Positions 1 through 40,335 of a stretch of DNA of 40,335 nucleotides are shown here, one piece after another. Both the position numbers and the translations under genes were made by a program. The stretch is taken from positions 1-40,335 of the forward strand of contig NZHC01000029.1 in the NCBI GenBank assembly GCA_002689655.1, read 5' to 3'. Numbering within the stretch: position 1 is the first letter of the stretch; each line of letters opens with the position of its first letter. The notes beneath the pieces were generated by a model. The model did not search any database, was not told the origin of the DNA, and was given only the letters and a program-made list of their open reading frames with translations. This DNA comes from Rhodopirellula sp. Lineage in GTDB: Bacteria > Planctomycetota > Planctomycetia > Pirellulales > Pirellulaceae.

Positions 1-75
<75 letters not shown>

Positions 76-3201: not shown

Positions 3202-4551
3202 ATGCGAATTCTGTTCGCTGACGATGAGACGAATTTACAAGAACTAATGCGTGTTGAATTGCCCAGAATGGGTTACGCAGTCACGGTTTGCCCCGACGGT
3301 TTGACTGCCGTGGCGGCATTGGAAAAAGAACCCTACGACTGTTTGTTTGTGGACCTTAATATGCCAGGCCTTAACGGGCTGGAAGTGATCGCAAGAGCGC
3401 GGGAATTGCGACCGGAAATCGAAGCCGTTGTCATGACGGGTAAGCCCAGTCAGGAAACCGCGATTGAAGCGCTGCGGTATCAGGTCTTTGATTATCTCAC
3501 AAAGCCGGCACGGCTGGCAGAGATCTCTGGCATGCTTGGACGCGTCAACGAACGCCGTCACGCCCGGCGTCAACTGGCTGCCTTGGAGCACCGTCTGCGG
3601 CGGGCAGAAGGCGACTCGCAACTGGTTGGCACGGGGCCGGCCATGGAACGTGTGCTGAAGCTCATCTCCAAAGTCGCCCCGACTGACAGTTCTGTCTTGA
3701 TCCGTGGCGAAACTGGCTGCGGAAAAGAATTGGTGGCGCGTGCGCTGCACGACAGTAGCTTGCGGGCAGAGCAACCGATGGTTGCTGTGAATTGTGGCGC
3801 ACTTCCCGAAAACCTGATCGAGAGTGAATTGTTTGGGCATTGTCGCGGAGCCTTCACTGGGGCAGACACGGCACGGACTGGGCTTTTCGAAGTCGCCGAT
3901 GGCGGCACGATTTTTCTCGATGAAATTGGCGAGTTGCCTCTGTCCATGCAAGCTAAATTGTTGCGGGTGCTCGAAACCGGCGATATCCGACGTCTAGGTG
4001 ATAATCAAACAGTCAATGTGAATGTTAGAGTGGTGTGTGCCACGCATCGTGATCTCGAGCAGATGGTCGAAGAGGGAACCTTTCGCGAAGACCTGATGTT
4101 CCGCATCAACACGTTCGAGATTGGCGTACCAGCTTTGCGTGAGCGAACCGAAGATATTCCCGTGTTGGCAAGACATCTTTTACGAAGACACCGTAGTGAC
4201 GGCAGTGATGATGCACTCTTTACGGATCTGGCAATGCAAGAATTGCAGACGCACCAATGGCCGGGTAACGTTCGGGAGCTTGCCAATGTGGTTGAGCATG
4301 CCGCGATTCTCTGCGAGTCGATGCCGATTGGAAGTGACGACCTTCCTCGGCACTTTGGCAAACGACAATTGCGAAAAGAAATTCGAGAGGCCAGCCCCAT
4401 GACTCTGAGGGAATTGGAATCGCTGGCAATCGCCAAGGCAGTCGAGCGGCATGAGGGTAACAAACCGGCTGCAGCTGCCGAGTTGGGTGTGAGCCTGAAA
4501 ACACTCTACAACAAACTTAATGCTGCGGAAGAACGCCGACAAGCTGGCTAG
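3202..4551 (+). CDS. sigma-54-dependent response regulator (NtrC family)
   Basis: 449-residue NtrC-type activator and obvious partner of the preceding kinase. In the form extended to the ATG at 3166 (461 residues), the receiver has acidic pocket Asp19/Asp20, phospho-acceptor Asp63 (FVDLNMPG), Thr91 and Lys113. The AAA+ domain has Walker A GETGCGKE (181-188), the sigma-54 contact loop GAFTGAD (228-234), Walker B FLDEI and WPGNVRELAN. A Fis-type helix-turn-helix (NKPAAAAELGVSLKTLYNKL) closes the protein. I start at ATG 3202, which puts the first receiver strand (MRILFADDE) at the N-terminus as is usual; ATG 3166 would overlap the kinase by 26 bases. Targets are unknown and I found no convincing -24/-12 promoter in the window. 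Confidence 0.93.
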   Translation: MRILFADDETNLQELMRVELPRMGYAVTVCPDGLTAVAALEKEPYDCLFVDLNMPGLNGLEVIARARELRPEIEAVVMTGKPSQETAIEALRYQVFDYLTKPARLAEISGMLGRVNERRHARRQLAALEHRLRRAEGDSQLVGTGPAMERVLKLISKVAPTDSSVLIRGETGCGKELVARALHDSSLRAEQPMVAVNCGALPENLIESELFGHCRGAFTGADTARTGLFEVADGGTIFLDEIGELPLSMQAKLLRVLETGDIRRLGDNQTVNVNVRVVCATHRDLEQMVEEGTFREDLMFRINTFEIGVPALRERTEDIPVLARHLLRRHRSDGSDDALFTDLAMQELQTHQWPGNVRELANVVEHAAILCESMPIGSDDLPRHFGKRQLRKEIREASPMTLRELESLAIAKAVERHEGNKPAAAAELGVSLKTLYNKLNAAEERRQAG

Positions 4552-36588: not shown

Positions 36589-37020
36589 GCGGCGATGGGG
36601 TAAGCTTGCGGCGGATACCGAGCCATTCAATTGGGGGCTCGATGGCAGCAGCGTCGATGGGGGGCTTTCTAGAGGCTGCAGAGGTTGGAAACGCCCGGGC
36701 CTGACCCGTCGTGGTCGGGCCGCCGCCTTGCATCTCAATTACGGGTTGTCGTGAATTGGGGCCTGAGTGCGAACCTGAACATTCGAAAAACGCTCCAGAT
36801 GGGTGAATACAGGACGACTTCGCGTACATGTTTGGTGATCTGGCGTGTTCTGTTCGAGGCGATTTTCGGGATGATAGCGGATTTTTCGATAAATTCCTGC
36901 GTTTGTGATGGGGGTGGGGAACTGGTTTTGGGATTGGTTTTTACGGCTGAAATACCGCTAGCCAATCCTCTGGATGGCCCTGGAGTCCTCATCGCAAATA
37001 GCCTCTACAGGAAATACAGC

Positions 37021-37049
37021 TTGCTTTGGGGGTGTTTAAGGGTTAATAT
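37021..37049 (+). promoter_or_regulatory. possible sigma-70-type promoter
   Basis: TTGCTT (37021-37026) and TAATAT (37044-37049) are separated by 17 bases and lie about 50 bases upstream of the zinc-ribbon start. Three of six and four of six bases match the E. coli consensus; planctomycete promoters are not well defined, so this is tentative. Confidence 0.3.
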
Positions 37050-37101
37050 CCTGCCATATCGGACGTCAGTTGCTTATCAAATGACCAACGGAGTTCTTTT
37101 C

Positions 37102-37353
37102 ATGTCACTACGTTTCACTCAATCTTGTCCGACCTGCGGCCGCCGAATCGAGGTCCGCGCTTCACTCATGGGATGCGATGTTCGTTGTCAGCATTGCGAC
37201 GCGGTCTTCGTTGCGCATCAAGACGTCGCTCAAGAAGATGAGACACATCGCCCAGTTCATTCACCATTGGCTGATGAATTCACATCAGATCCTTTGATGG
37301 ATCGCGTTGAGCAGGCTTTGAATCGAGCTGAGGAATCAGCGGCTGTCAGCTGA
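37102..37353 (+). CDS. small zinc-ribbon protein
   Basis: 83-residue protein. An N-terminal zinc ribbon has two Cys pairs, CPTCGRR and CQHC, about 20 residues apart (SCPTCGRRIEVR ... VRCQHCDAVF), followed by an acidic, probably helical tail (LMDRVEQALNRAEESAA). Such MJ0042-like or FmdB-like ribbons are found at the start of many planctomycete proteins, here as a stand-alone domain. ATG 37102 is preceded by GGAG at eight bases. The cytoplasmic role (RNA or protein binding) is unknown. The frame is open far upstream but that part has no coding character. Confidence 0.75.
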   Translation: MSLRFTQSCPTCGRRIEVRASLMGCDVRCQHCDAVFVAHQDVAQEDETHRPVHSPLADEFTSDPLMDRVEQALNRAEESAAVS

Positions 37354-37520
37354 GACAGCCTCTGATGAAAGCCTTTAGTCCGCTGGGATGCCCCAGAAGG
37401 CTGATTGCTGCAGAGTGCTCTCGGTGGGTGCCCGGTCACCCAGACCTTGATTCGATGAGTTCACTGGGGGCCGACAACTGCCCCTACGATTTTCGTGGCA
37501 TCAAGCCCTAGCAGGCAGGC

Positions 37521-38621
37521 TCACTCAGAAGAAGCATCTGGCTGAAGCAGATCGATATTCCCGCCCACAGCAACACCTTGCCAATTCGCAGCAAGCATCA
37601 CACTGTTGATCCCCGATCCAATGCCCAGCAGGGCGGTGCGGTCATTGGTGGCAATCTCGCCGGATTGGGCAGCCCAAGCCAAAGAGAGGGGCAGAGCTAC
37701 CGAACCCGTGTTGCCAAGTTTGGGAAATGTGATGCTGTCGCGTTGAGGATCCAGACCCATCGCTTCCAGCATTCCAGCTCGGTGTCGAGAGCCAACTTGA
37801 TGGCAGATCGAGCGATCAATCTGTTCTCGCGTCCACCCGGTCGTGTCGAGAAGACGCTCGAAGGCAGCGATCCCAGTCCGGATTCCCTCAGCCATCAGTC
37901 GTTCGGAATCTGTATCCATCAAAGGTTGCATTCCCGCTCCTGCCGCGTCATCGTCGCTCATGCAAAGGTCATGAAATTCGGTTCTTGCTTCCGCAACCGC
38001 AGTTTCGATAGGAGTTCCTCCCTGCGAATGCTTACGATGAGTCAAAAGCCAAGCGCAGCTACCCGATCCAATGGTCAGCGATGCAAATGCTGGTTTCACT
38101 GTTTTGCGTGTCAGCGACTGGTCTTGGTTTAAACTTTCGATGGTTTGAGTCAGCAAAGGCCTGCTGTTCTCAGTTCCAACGACAATGCCCGCGTCGATCA
38201 CACCTGATTCGATCAACATCGCGATCTGGATTGCCCCGTTGATTAAGCCCAGGCATGCGTTGGAAACATCGTAAACCCAACACTGATGGGGCAAGCCGAG
38301 CCCATGGTGCACTCGCGAAGCAGTGGCCGGTTCAAGAAAATCGCGACACACACTGGCGTGGATCAAGCAGCCAATCCGATCACGATCGATTCCTGCAGCC
38401 TCAATTGCGTGGTTCCCACTGCTAATACTGGGCCCGCTAGGGACTACACCCTCGGGCCAAACCCGTCGCTCGACGATCCCGCTCATCAACTCAAGACGAC
38501 CTTGTGGCAACTTTAGCCGCGAGTAAAGAGGCTCCAGGCGATCTTCGATGTCCTGACTGGTCCATATCTCCGTTGGAATCTCGGCACCAATCGACTCCAG
38601 ATAAACATTTTCGAATCGCAC
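37521..38621 (-). CDS. 3-oxoacyl-ACP synthase III family protein (FabH/OleA-like)
   Basis: 366-residue thiolase-fold condensing enzyme with the complete triad Cys123 (VSNACLGLING), His274 (ICHQVG) and Asn304 (LGNTGSVALP). Fatty-acid FabH normally has an ACAGF-type nucleophile loop; SNACLG is closer to OleA, which joins two acyl-CoAs by head-to-head condensation, and to related PKS-type KAS III enzymes. No oleB, oleC or oleD genes are in the window, so whether it makes long-chain olefins or ketones, or something else, is open. GTG start at 38621 with AGG seven bases upstream. No operon partner. Confidence 0.88.
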   Translation of the reverse strand: MRFENVYLESIGAEIPTEIWTSQDIEDRLEPLYSRLKLPQGRLELMSGIVERRVWPEGVVPSGPSISSGNHAIEAAGIDRDRIGCLIHASVCRDFLEPATASRVHHGLGLPHQCWVYDVSNACLGLINGAIQIAMLIESGVIDAGIVVGTENSRPLLTQTIESLNQDQSLTRKTVKPAFASLTIGSGSCAWLLTHRKHSQGGTPIETAVAEARTEFHDLCMSDDDAAGAGMQPLMDTDSERLMAEGIRTGIAAFERLLDTTGWTREQIDRSICHQVGSRHRAGMLEAMGLDPQRDSITFPKLGNTGSVALPLSLAWAAQSGEIATNDRTALLGIGSGINSVMLAANWQGVAVGGNIDLLQPDASSE

Positions 38622-39106
38622 TGATCGCCTGAGGTGTTGTTGGGTCTGTTTCGAGTTAGCTGCCTCAAAATCATCTGATTTCGGCGTGAGTATCGTAACC
38701 TAAACGACATAAACCCGCAGGTTGCTATCAAAAAAAGCCAATGCTAGCACTGCCTGTAGTGCTATCGCCTGCCTTGGCGTGAATATGTAGAAAAGGTTTG
38801 GGTAAAAGAAGGTGAGAGGCTAAATTTTGCACCAATCAAGGGTTAGGCGACGTTGCTTGACCCGACCAGACGTTTCCAAAGTGATTGCGAGAAGCGGCGT
38901 GAGCTGAAGAAATCGGTTTTTGTGAGGGCAATTCTGTGTTGATCACGGTTGCAACCACCGCCGGTCTTTCTCTTCGGAGCACCAGGAATGGAGTCTGAGC
39001 CCTTTGGTTAGGGAGCGGAGCTTCGAGCAAGCTAGGGTCAAGTTTGGCGATGCGGGACGAGTCTGCATCAACCTTTTCATTCGCGAATTCGAAGAGGACC
39101 TTTCGG
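38622..39106. other. divergent intergenic region, nothing recognised
   Basis: About 485 bases between the KAS III-like gene (minus) and the amidotransferase homologue (plus). No supported ORF or RNA is seen; the frame of the right-hand gene is open to 39044 but its upstream part has no family match. Promoters for both genes should lie here. Confidence 0.4.
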
Positions 39107-39856
39107 ATGTCGAATAAACCACTGATCGGAATGAACGCCGATTATCGGGCTGCCGCCCGTAGCATGCCTGCTTACAGTTATGTTGCGGCAGGGTATTTTC
39201 AGTCGATCATTTCGGCTGGGGGAATTCCGGTAGTGTTACCACCCATGGATGATTCCGCTGCAATTTCGCAGGTGCTGGATCAGCTCAATGGTTTTGTCAT
39301 GATTGGCGGTGCCGACCTTGACCCACGAAATGATGGTTTCATGCTTCACCCAAGTGTGCGACCTCTCGATCCTGTCAGGGAGGCCTGTGATCGGTTGCTC
39401 ATGGCAGATATCGCTGAACGACGGATGCCAGTCCTCGGGATTGGAACCGGCATGCAGCTCATTAATGTGCAGCAAGGTGGGAACTTGTTCCTGCACATCA
39501 AAGAAGATCTTCCCAATGCTGTTCCGCATCACGATCCGCAGGATGCAAGTCACCGACACACCCTCGATGTCGTGAGTGATTCCTTGATCGGTCGTGTCTA
39601 TGGTGATGGCGAGATTCGTGTCAGCAGCCGACATCATATGGCGATCGATGAAGTTGCTCCCGGTTTTCGCGTCACCGCGAAGTGTCCCGATGGAGTCATT
39701 GAAGCGATCGAAAGCGAAATGATGGATTGGTTCGCAGTGGGAACTCAGTTCCATCCAGAGTGTGGTGCAGCATCCGCTTTGGACATTCGAATCTTTGAAG
39801 AATTTGTTGATGGAGTAAATCAACGGATTGACCAAGATCTGCGTTTGGTCGCATAG
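39107..39856 (+). CDS. class I glutamine amidotransferase-like (peptidase C26) protein lacking the nucleophile Cys
   Basis: 249 residues of the gamma-glutamyl-GABA hydrolase/peptidase C26 family (PuuD-like): PLIGMNADYR, GFVMIGGADLDP, RMPVLGIGTGMQLINVQQGG, HRHTLDVV, SSRHHMAID and GTQFHPE. The nucleophile elbow, normally LGICRGxQ, reads LGIGTGMQ, with Gly113 (codon GGA) in place of Cys. His216 and Glu218 of the triad remain. By established chemistry it should not hydrolyse gamma-glutamyl amides, so it may be a binding or regulatory protein. ATG 39107 is preceded by GAGGAC; the frame is open to 39044. It stands directly upstream of the structured RNA candidate. Confidence 0.88.
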   Translation: MSNKPLIGMNADYRAAARSMPAYSYVAAGYFQSIISAGGIPVVLPPMDDSAAISQVLDQLNGFVMIGGADLDPRNDGFMLHPSVRPLDPVREACDRLLMADIAERRMPVLGIGTGMQLINVQQGGNLFLHIKEDLPNAVPHHDPQDASHRHTLDVVSDSLIGRVYGDGEIRVSSRHHMAIDEVAPGFRVTAKCPDGVIEAIESEMMDWFAVGTQFHPECGAASALDIRIFEEFVDGVNQRIDQDLRLVA

Positions 39857-39884
39857 CCAAATATGGTATGTTGTCAAAATCACA

Positions 39885-39903
39885 GTCGAAGCTAGGCTTC
39901 GAC
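39885..39903. repeat. perfect inverted repeat after the amidotransferase-like gene
   Basis: GTCGAAGC (39885-39892) and GCTTCGAC (39896-39903) form an 8-bp stem with a TAG loop, 29 bases after the stop codon. No U-tract follows. It could stabilise or end that mRNA, or be an operator for the downstream RNA. Confidence 0.6.
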
Positions 39904-39939
39904 GGGCGTTGACCAAGTGGTTGCGTTTTTAATCAAACC

Positions 39940-40262
39940 TTTCCAGCGAGCCAACCTTGCGAGCTGTTCAATTGATAGACCATTCAGCTGAGGAGAGTCG
40001 GATCACAAGGATGTGACACTAACCGAATCGTTTGTGAGTGTTTCGGTAGTCCAGTCACAGCCCCGCGCACGGATTAGCGCGTTTGCCGCAGGCAGGAAGC
40101 CAAGGCGGAAGTGACCGAACACACCACCGAAGCCCGTGATCACGGAAGATCGTGACCTGATGCAGGATGCAATGGGTCCGCAAATCGAATCGGATAGGCG
40201 AAAAGTCAGGATTGACTTTGAGGCCGGACGCGCGACGAGTCGAAGCGCGTCCGGCCTTTTTT
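39940..40262 (+). ncRNA. candidate CsrA/RsmA-sponge small RNA (CsrB/RsmZ-like)
   Basis: A gene-free stretch ending in a strong terminator contains eleven GGA triplets (starts at 39992, 40000, 40009, 40071, 40095, 40107, 40144, 40165, 40192, 40209, 40226). At least six sit in or at hairpin loops: TCACA-AGGA-TGTGA (40003-40016), GCGC-ACGGATTA-GCGC (40065-40080), GGC-AGGAA-GCC (40091-40101), TCAC/GTGA around GGAAG (40140-40155), TGCA-GGA-TGCA (40161-40171) and a 7-bp stem with loop GGAT (40202-40219). Within the first, ACAAGGAUGU equals the core of the known CsrA SELEX site (RUACARGGAUGU). A 9-bp stem (40018-40050) lacks GGA. Known family features: CsrB/RsmZ RNAs sequester CsrA by such loops. 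Strand and 3' end are well supported; the 5' end is a guess (weak TTGACC at 39909). It could instead be the 3'UTR of the upstream gene. Confidence 0.6.
40222..40262 (+). terminator. strong intrinsic terminator
   Basis: GGCCGGACGCGC (40222-40233) pairs perfectly with GCGCGTCCGGCC (40245-40256) around an 11-base loop, followed at once by T6 (40257-40262). This is the best intrinsic terminator in the window, and no protein gene ends within 360 bases upstream, pointing to an RNA gene or a long 3'UTR. Confidence 0.9.
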
Positions 40263-40308
40263 CGTTTTGTAGCTGTGCTGTTCGTTTCTTAAGTAACGAA
40301 CTTCTGAC

Positions 40309-40335
40309 GCTCGTTGTTCGCTCGTTGTTCGCTCG
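40309..40335. repeat. 11-bp tandem repeat running off the window edge
   Basis: GCTCGTTGTTC occurs at 40309-40319 and 40320-40330, followed by GCTCG to the last base. The array is cut by the window edge, so its full copy number is unknown. Confidence 0.85.

Follow-up and report, generated by a model that had tools for sequence, protein, structure and literature searches.

The DNA immediately downstream of a peptidase C26 gene in a Rhodopirellula genome probably encodes a CsrB/RsmZ-like, CsrA-sequestering RNA of the Pirellulaceae. Control of CsrA by sponge RNAs with GGA hairpins is established mainly in Gammaproteobacteria. We analyzed a window of 40,335 nt, which is the whole of one contig (C148) of a 7.09-Mb genome; the candidate RNA lies at 39940-40262, a segment of 323 nt with a more stable fold than 100 shuffled versions (z -4.67). 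The C26 gene directly upstream of it served as the syntenic anchor for comparison with related genomes. An original prediction of a sponge RNA at this locus, made from the letters of the window, is supported by the comparative sequence evidence presented here.

Results

All eleven of the predicted GGA triplets were found in the segment (at 39992, 40000, 40009, 40071, 40095, 40107, 40144, 40165, 40192, 40209 and 40226). The chance expectation of about four that had accompanied this count was too low, as dinucleotide shuffles contain 6.83 triplets (p 0.0245) and mononucleotide shuffles contain 7.26 (p 0.081). The raw count is modestly high and, with a p value of only 0.025, was rejected as sufficient proof; the placement of the triplets in hairpins is beyond chance. 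Between 39990 and 40221 there are five strict GGA-loop hairpins, defined by a stem of at least four pairs, against 0.49 in shuffles, and none of 2,000 shuffles reaches five. The prediction had placed at least six GGAs in loops, among them that of TCACA-AGGA-TGTGA, which is present as described (Table 1); five loops stand by the strict definition, while the hairpin at 40091-40101, which is needed to reach six, has only three pairs. No protein gene evidently fits the segment, as had been proposed: its open reading frames are short (41 to 110 amino acids) and overlapping, two of them are open at the contig end, and the orthologues of the candidate RNA differ by indels of many sizes.

Table 1. Features of the C26-side locus, with positions in the window and retention among 15 aligned orthologues
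Feature	Position	Strand	Evidence or retention
Peptidase C26/class I glutamine amidotransferase-like gene	39107..39856	+	ORF list, Pfam PF07722; start codon by inspection
Hairpin GTCGAAG..CTTCGAC, between C26 stop and RNA	39885..39903	+	Pairing retained despite base changes in close relatives (by eye)
Palindrome ACCA-AG-TGGT	39912..39921	.	Block retained in close relatives only (by eye)
CTGAGGAG, apparent 5' part of conserved RNA	39988..39995	+	GGA at 39992 outside called loops, kept 11/15
GGA hairpin 1, TCACA-AGGA-TGTGA	40003..40016	+	GGA kept 15/15
GGA hairpin 2, CGCGC-ACGGATTA-GCGCG	40064..40081	+	GGA kept 14/15; remaining row is a gap
GGA hairpin 3, GGC-AGGAA-GCC, 3 pairs	40091..40101	+	Stem kept; GGA 7/15, often AGA otherwise
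GGA hairpin 4, TGATC-ACGGAA-GATCG	40137..40152	+	GGA kept 14/15
GGA hairpin 5, TGCA-GGA-TGCA (40161-40171) within outer stem GACCT/GGGTC	40154..40178	+	GGA kept 11/15
GGA hairpin 6, AAAGTCA-GGAT-TGACTTT	40202..40219	+	GGA kept 14/15
Intrinsic terminator, 12-13 bp stem, 11-nt loop GACGAGTCGAA, T6	40221..40262	+	Sequence, 15-row alignment, RNAalifold

The perfect 12-bp terminator with its T6 was also found. Its stem pairs 40222-40233 with 40245-40256, is extended to 13 pairs by A40221-T40257, and is followed by the T run at 40257-40262; it is missing from our consensus scan because the scan allows loops of 3 to 8 nt and the loop here has 11. Within this loop, CGAGTCGAA (40236-40244) does not vary among the 15 orthologues, even though the flanking stem pairs do, and may possibly have a function beyond termination.

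The structure covaries among orthologues at the syntenic C26 locus, a check that the prediction had itself proposed. RNAalifold, applied to the 15-row alignment (A1), gave 40 pairs, 18 of them changed on both sides, and recovered five of the six GGA hairpins on its own; hairpin 2 was added to the consensus by hand for the covariation count. The 29 stem pairs outside the terminator are paired in 93.7% of cells, and 16 of them have changed on both sides yet still pair; among the pairs of the outer stem of hairpin 5, four of five have done so. On each of our five measures of covariation, all 500 shuffles fall short of the real structure, a comparison in which related rows of the alignment work in its favor. 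Sliding the partners by one to three columns lowers pairing to 20-37%, with the tested structure favored over the slid versions by its derivation from the same alignment. Row counts are not independent, since seven of the 15 rows come from close relatives.

The looped triplets are kept as Table 1 records. Outside the called loops, retention is 7 of 15 rows for the GGA at 40000 and 6 for each of those at 40107 and 40192, and the terminator-stem GGA is present in all 15. When 20 syntenic sequences were folded (18 from the genus and two from other genera), GGA ranked first of the 64 trinucleotides for placement in hairpin loops, at 0.41 versus 0.09 overall. Because the hairpin finder was keyed on GGA alone, the bases beside the triplet provide independent evidence for CsrA. 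Of the 79 looped GGAs in the 18 genus loci, 73 have the form A(N)GGA and 58 the form GGAU; the figures for the other GGAs of the same segments are 47 and 34 of 114, and those for 568 control GGA hairpins elsewhere are 37% and 27%. Twelve loci of other genera gave A(N)GGA at 50 of 61 looped GGAs, which is less independent evidence, as these loci were picked after their sequences had been inspected. Hairpin 1 contains ACAAGGAUGU; the CsrA consensus obtained by SELEX is RUACARGGAUGU, in which ACA and GGA are fully conserved (PMC4347634).

These flanks bear on a further idea, that the structured RNA binds a ligand different from CsrA or acts as an sRNA by pairing its GGA loops with UCC in mRNAs. 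Such an RNA could account for the invariance of the terminator loop, and looped GGAs could conceivably pair with UCC. However, the flanks follow A(N)GGA(U), which UCC pairing does not require, the stems beside the loops are freely variable, and csrA is present in all 60 genomes searched, that of the window included. We consider this explanation highly improbable.

The upstream gene matches PF07722 at 39110-39853 (E 2.2e-62), and the unit of C26 followed by the RNA occurs in the window genome and in 17 of 21 same-genus relatives, which makes 18 genomes for the genus; of the remaining four relatives, three have no C26 match and the fourth is cut by a contig end. A model of the 3' part of the RNA, built from 15 same-genus loci (R1), matched 27 of 241 genomes of the family and left 214 without a match. 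Eighteen of the matches are in the genus, including three genomes outside the model (G019, G015 and G006; E 8e-11 to 3e-9), and six, at E <3e-7, come from two other genera. The other three, at E 6e-4 to 0.002 (G082, G240 and G242; L226-L228), have no adjoining C26 gene and were set aside. Every one of the 24 matches at E <3e-7 adjoins C26, and each of these loci is a single place in its genome, antisense matches on the palindromic terminator aside. BLAST and R1 searches of the window genome likewise found no second copy of the RNA, the second matches being the antisense of the terminator. Elsewhere in the window, a weaker cluster of four GGA hairpins lies at 1430-1626 on the plus strand.

This constant position beside C26 raises the main alternative, namely that the GGA hairpins are the 3' UTR of the C26 mRNA and that CsrA controls this mRNA, with titration minor or absent. 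The first GGA hairpin starts 24 to 159 nt past the C26 stop in ten loci, all 24 strong R1 matches adjoin the gene, and a scan for terminators with loops of 3 to 8 nt found none on the plus strand between C26 and the hairpins in the window. Possible cotranscription with C26 weakens the picture of a stand-alone sRNA. On the other hand, five to ten GGA hairpins would seemingly exceed the need of one mRNA, and the block between C26 and the RNA, conserved by eye in close relatives, could be a promoter. We regard the 3' UTR explanation as rather unlikely. A consensus scan of the window detected no promoter for the candidate RNA; the block around the palindrome at 39912..39921 is a possible promoter or operator region. 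The hairpin that precedes it is lost in one relative (G008) and has no plus-strand T run. The last eight codons of C26, examined for an embedded promoter, have a synonymous-codon divergence of 0.45, compared with 0.44-0.68 elsewhere.

Clusters of GGA hairpins after C26 extend beyond the genus. At least five such hairpins per 350 nt, within 500 nt past C26, were counted at 11 of 18 genus loci and at 6 of 47 other C26 loci, as against 5 of 1,814 control segments; the antisense strands of the same 65 segments never carry four. The count, made by one rule for targets and controls, covers 65 of 67 C26 loci, L097 and L110 being too short. Dropped before this count were L056, in which the contig ends within the gene, and L070-L081, L084 and L107, whose genomes appeared to be represented already by other loci. 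A few of the 47 other loci belong to different families within the order, some form close pairs (L053/L121, for example), and both L109 and L092 (four GGA hairpins, apparently repeat arms) were retained. The six non-genus loci that reach five are in Laterigemmans (L101), Roseimaritima (L102 and L095), Aporhodopirellula (L090) and R. maiorica (L121), together with L109. Fewer than four GGA hairpins were found at 37 of the 47 other loci, and R. baltica BR-MGV has none after C26. The Laterigemmans locus has ten GGA hairpins, partly in tandem; the repeats, of the type GCTGCAC-ACGGAC-GTGCGGC, lie at about 3750-3890 directly after C26, suggesting growth by duplication.

The remaining 7 of 18 genus loci bear on an observation that the original prediction had named as counting against it, a terminator kept without GGA loops. 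Both elements are kept in the 15 aligned orthologues, in which four of the loops retain GGA in 14 or 15 rows; these seven genomes keep the terminator with two to three strict GGA hairpins, which comes close to that observation.

Clusters also occur away from C26. A scan of 1.6 Mb of the relative G003, both strands included, gave 11 clusters after merging, each with five or more GGA hairpins per 300 nt, and the C26-side locus is among them; a cluster alone was accordingly rejected as proof of a sponge. Of the remaining ten, nine fall within stop-to-stop frames of at least 167 codons, frames that are not proof of genes, and one of these nine turned out to be largely within a gene leader. This cluster count and the modest enrichment in raw GGA number would fit GGA hairpins that had accumulated by chance in the intergenic DNA before a terminator. 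Such an accumulation is contradicted by the covariation of the stems in 15 genomes, by the retention of looped GGAs, by the A(N)GGA flanks and by the recurrence after C26 in some other genera, and we find it scarcely credible. In the same relative, five GGA hairpins lie within about 130 nt on the minus strand (L137:10326-10454; G003:C1:310326-310454), mostly just upstream of an outer-membrane efflux frame (TolC/OprM-like by eye) and after a large RND-pump-like frame; from its sequence, this cluster is a candidate CsrA-controlled leader.

The window genome has five csrA genes, their presence being a further check suggested by the prediction, and one fliW. All five CsrA paralogues keep the MLVL[ST]R start and an R at the RNA-binding position. 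The paralogues (L001-L005) are divergent, and L003 and L005 lie in long open frames with C-terminal extensions. The fliW gene is on contig 73, some 280 bases ahead of one of the csrA genes, with a FliW match over the cutoff; FliW was found in 31 of 40 genomes, this one included. A UvrY-like query of approximate sequence gave 17 matches, of which two were near full length (26 and 28% identity), and no clear UvrY/GacA orthologue.

The prediction that the RNA need not fit the Rfam models of CsrB or RsmY/Z proved right, as it matches no Rfam family. A search of 37000-40335 at E values up to 10 gave nothing relevant, and the whole window at gathering score gave a tRNA only. A tRNA gene lies at the window start (2-75, minus strand). 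No CsrB or PrrB_RsmZ match at gathering score was present in the window or in ten relatives; at a relaxed threshold in eight relatives, there were subthreshold matches just after C26 to CsrB at L102 (19.3 of 71 bits, E 0.21) and to RsmZ at L093 in R. europaea (23.6 of 44 bits, E 0.17). TwoAYGGAY and Bacillaceae-1 were absent from the Rfam matches in the window and the scanned relatives.

Discussion

Our results suggest that the locus specifies a noncoding RNA of approximately 275 to 320 nt, ending at 40262. With its five to six A(N)GGA hairpin loops, this RNA would capture CsrA dimers and would titrate at least one of the five CsrA proteins away from its mRNA targets, as CsrB and RsmZ do. The RNA may come from its own promoter, just before or inside the end of C26, or may be a 3'-end product of the C26 mRNA. 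Transcription, CsrA binding and titration as a physiological effect are what we infer from the conserved features. Judged from sequence, these are features of the sponge class: looped A(N)GGA motifs, a conserved structure with a terminator and csrA in the genome. The putative RNA is CsrB/RsmZ-like in the features tested but falls outside those Rfam families, and two traits of the CsrB/RsmZ circuits are missing, namely, the absence of fliW and a clear UvrY.

RsmZ of Pseudomonas (RF00166), which has RsmY as its counterpart, is a small RNA with a terminator; the candidate RNA resembles it in its handful of A(N)GGA hairpins and its terminator and differs in having no Rfam match. With CsrB/CsrC of Enterobacteria (RF00018 and RF00084) it would share a noncoding nature, looped GGA motifs, an intrinsic terminator and the presence of csrA in the genome, whereas it comes from another phylum, matches no Rfam family and belongs to a genome with fliW and no clear UvrY orthologue. 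Its 11 GGAs are fewer than the 22 of E. coli CsrB (PMC7652899). Outside Gammaproteobacteria, TwoAYGGAY (RF01731) and reverse-strand Bacillaceae-1 (RF01690), of Clostridia and Bacillales/Lactobacillales, have been predicted to be CsrA-binding sRNAs, with two CsrA-motif matches per family (PMC4333381); there too, CsrA sequestration was predicted from GGA-loop motifs in another phylum. The Rhodopirellula-1 motif, a candidate from Planctomycetes and Proteobacteria, is graded an ambiguous RNA, probably cis-regulatory, and carries no Rfam number in its published table (PMC2864571); on that table description, it is unlikely to be the RNA described here. Among the matches listed from the open-license literature, in which Rhodopirellula-1 was compared by its description only, we found no CsrA-sponge RNA in planctomycetes.

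The FliW-CsrA partner switch of Bacillus and Campylobacter likewise antagonizes CsrA, and here one fliW lies near one csrA; FliW, however, is a protein antagonist, whereas our candidate is an RNA in a fliW-bearing genome. Species known to make CsrA-inhibitory sRNAs reportedly lack fliW (PMC4682653), and the window genome is unlike the gammaproteobacterial species with Csr sRNAs in having it. The same source proposed that Gammaproteobacteria use sRNA antagonists and that Planctomycetes, among others, may use FliW (PMC4682653). We tentatively suggest that the Pirellulaceae possess an independently evolved sponge family at the 3' end of C26, beside FliW, with each antagonist serving different CsrA paralogues.

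In summary, CsrA-binding sRNAs were predicted earlier in Firmicutes (PMC4333381), and hence sponges outside Gammaproteobacteria are not a new idea; the novelty here lies in the phylum, in how many sites there are, in the synteny and in the presence of FliW alongside. If our interpretation is correct, the same RNA solution would have arisen with a sequence that escapes the Rfam models. It was described as still to be determined whether FliW and sRNAs jointly act on CsrA in any species (PMC7652899, 2020). A sponge RNA in fliW-bearing planctomycetes would cross the division between sRNA and FliW antagonists and would make this question testable at one named locus.
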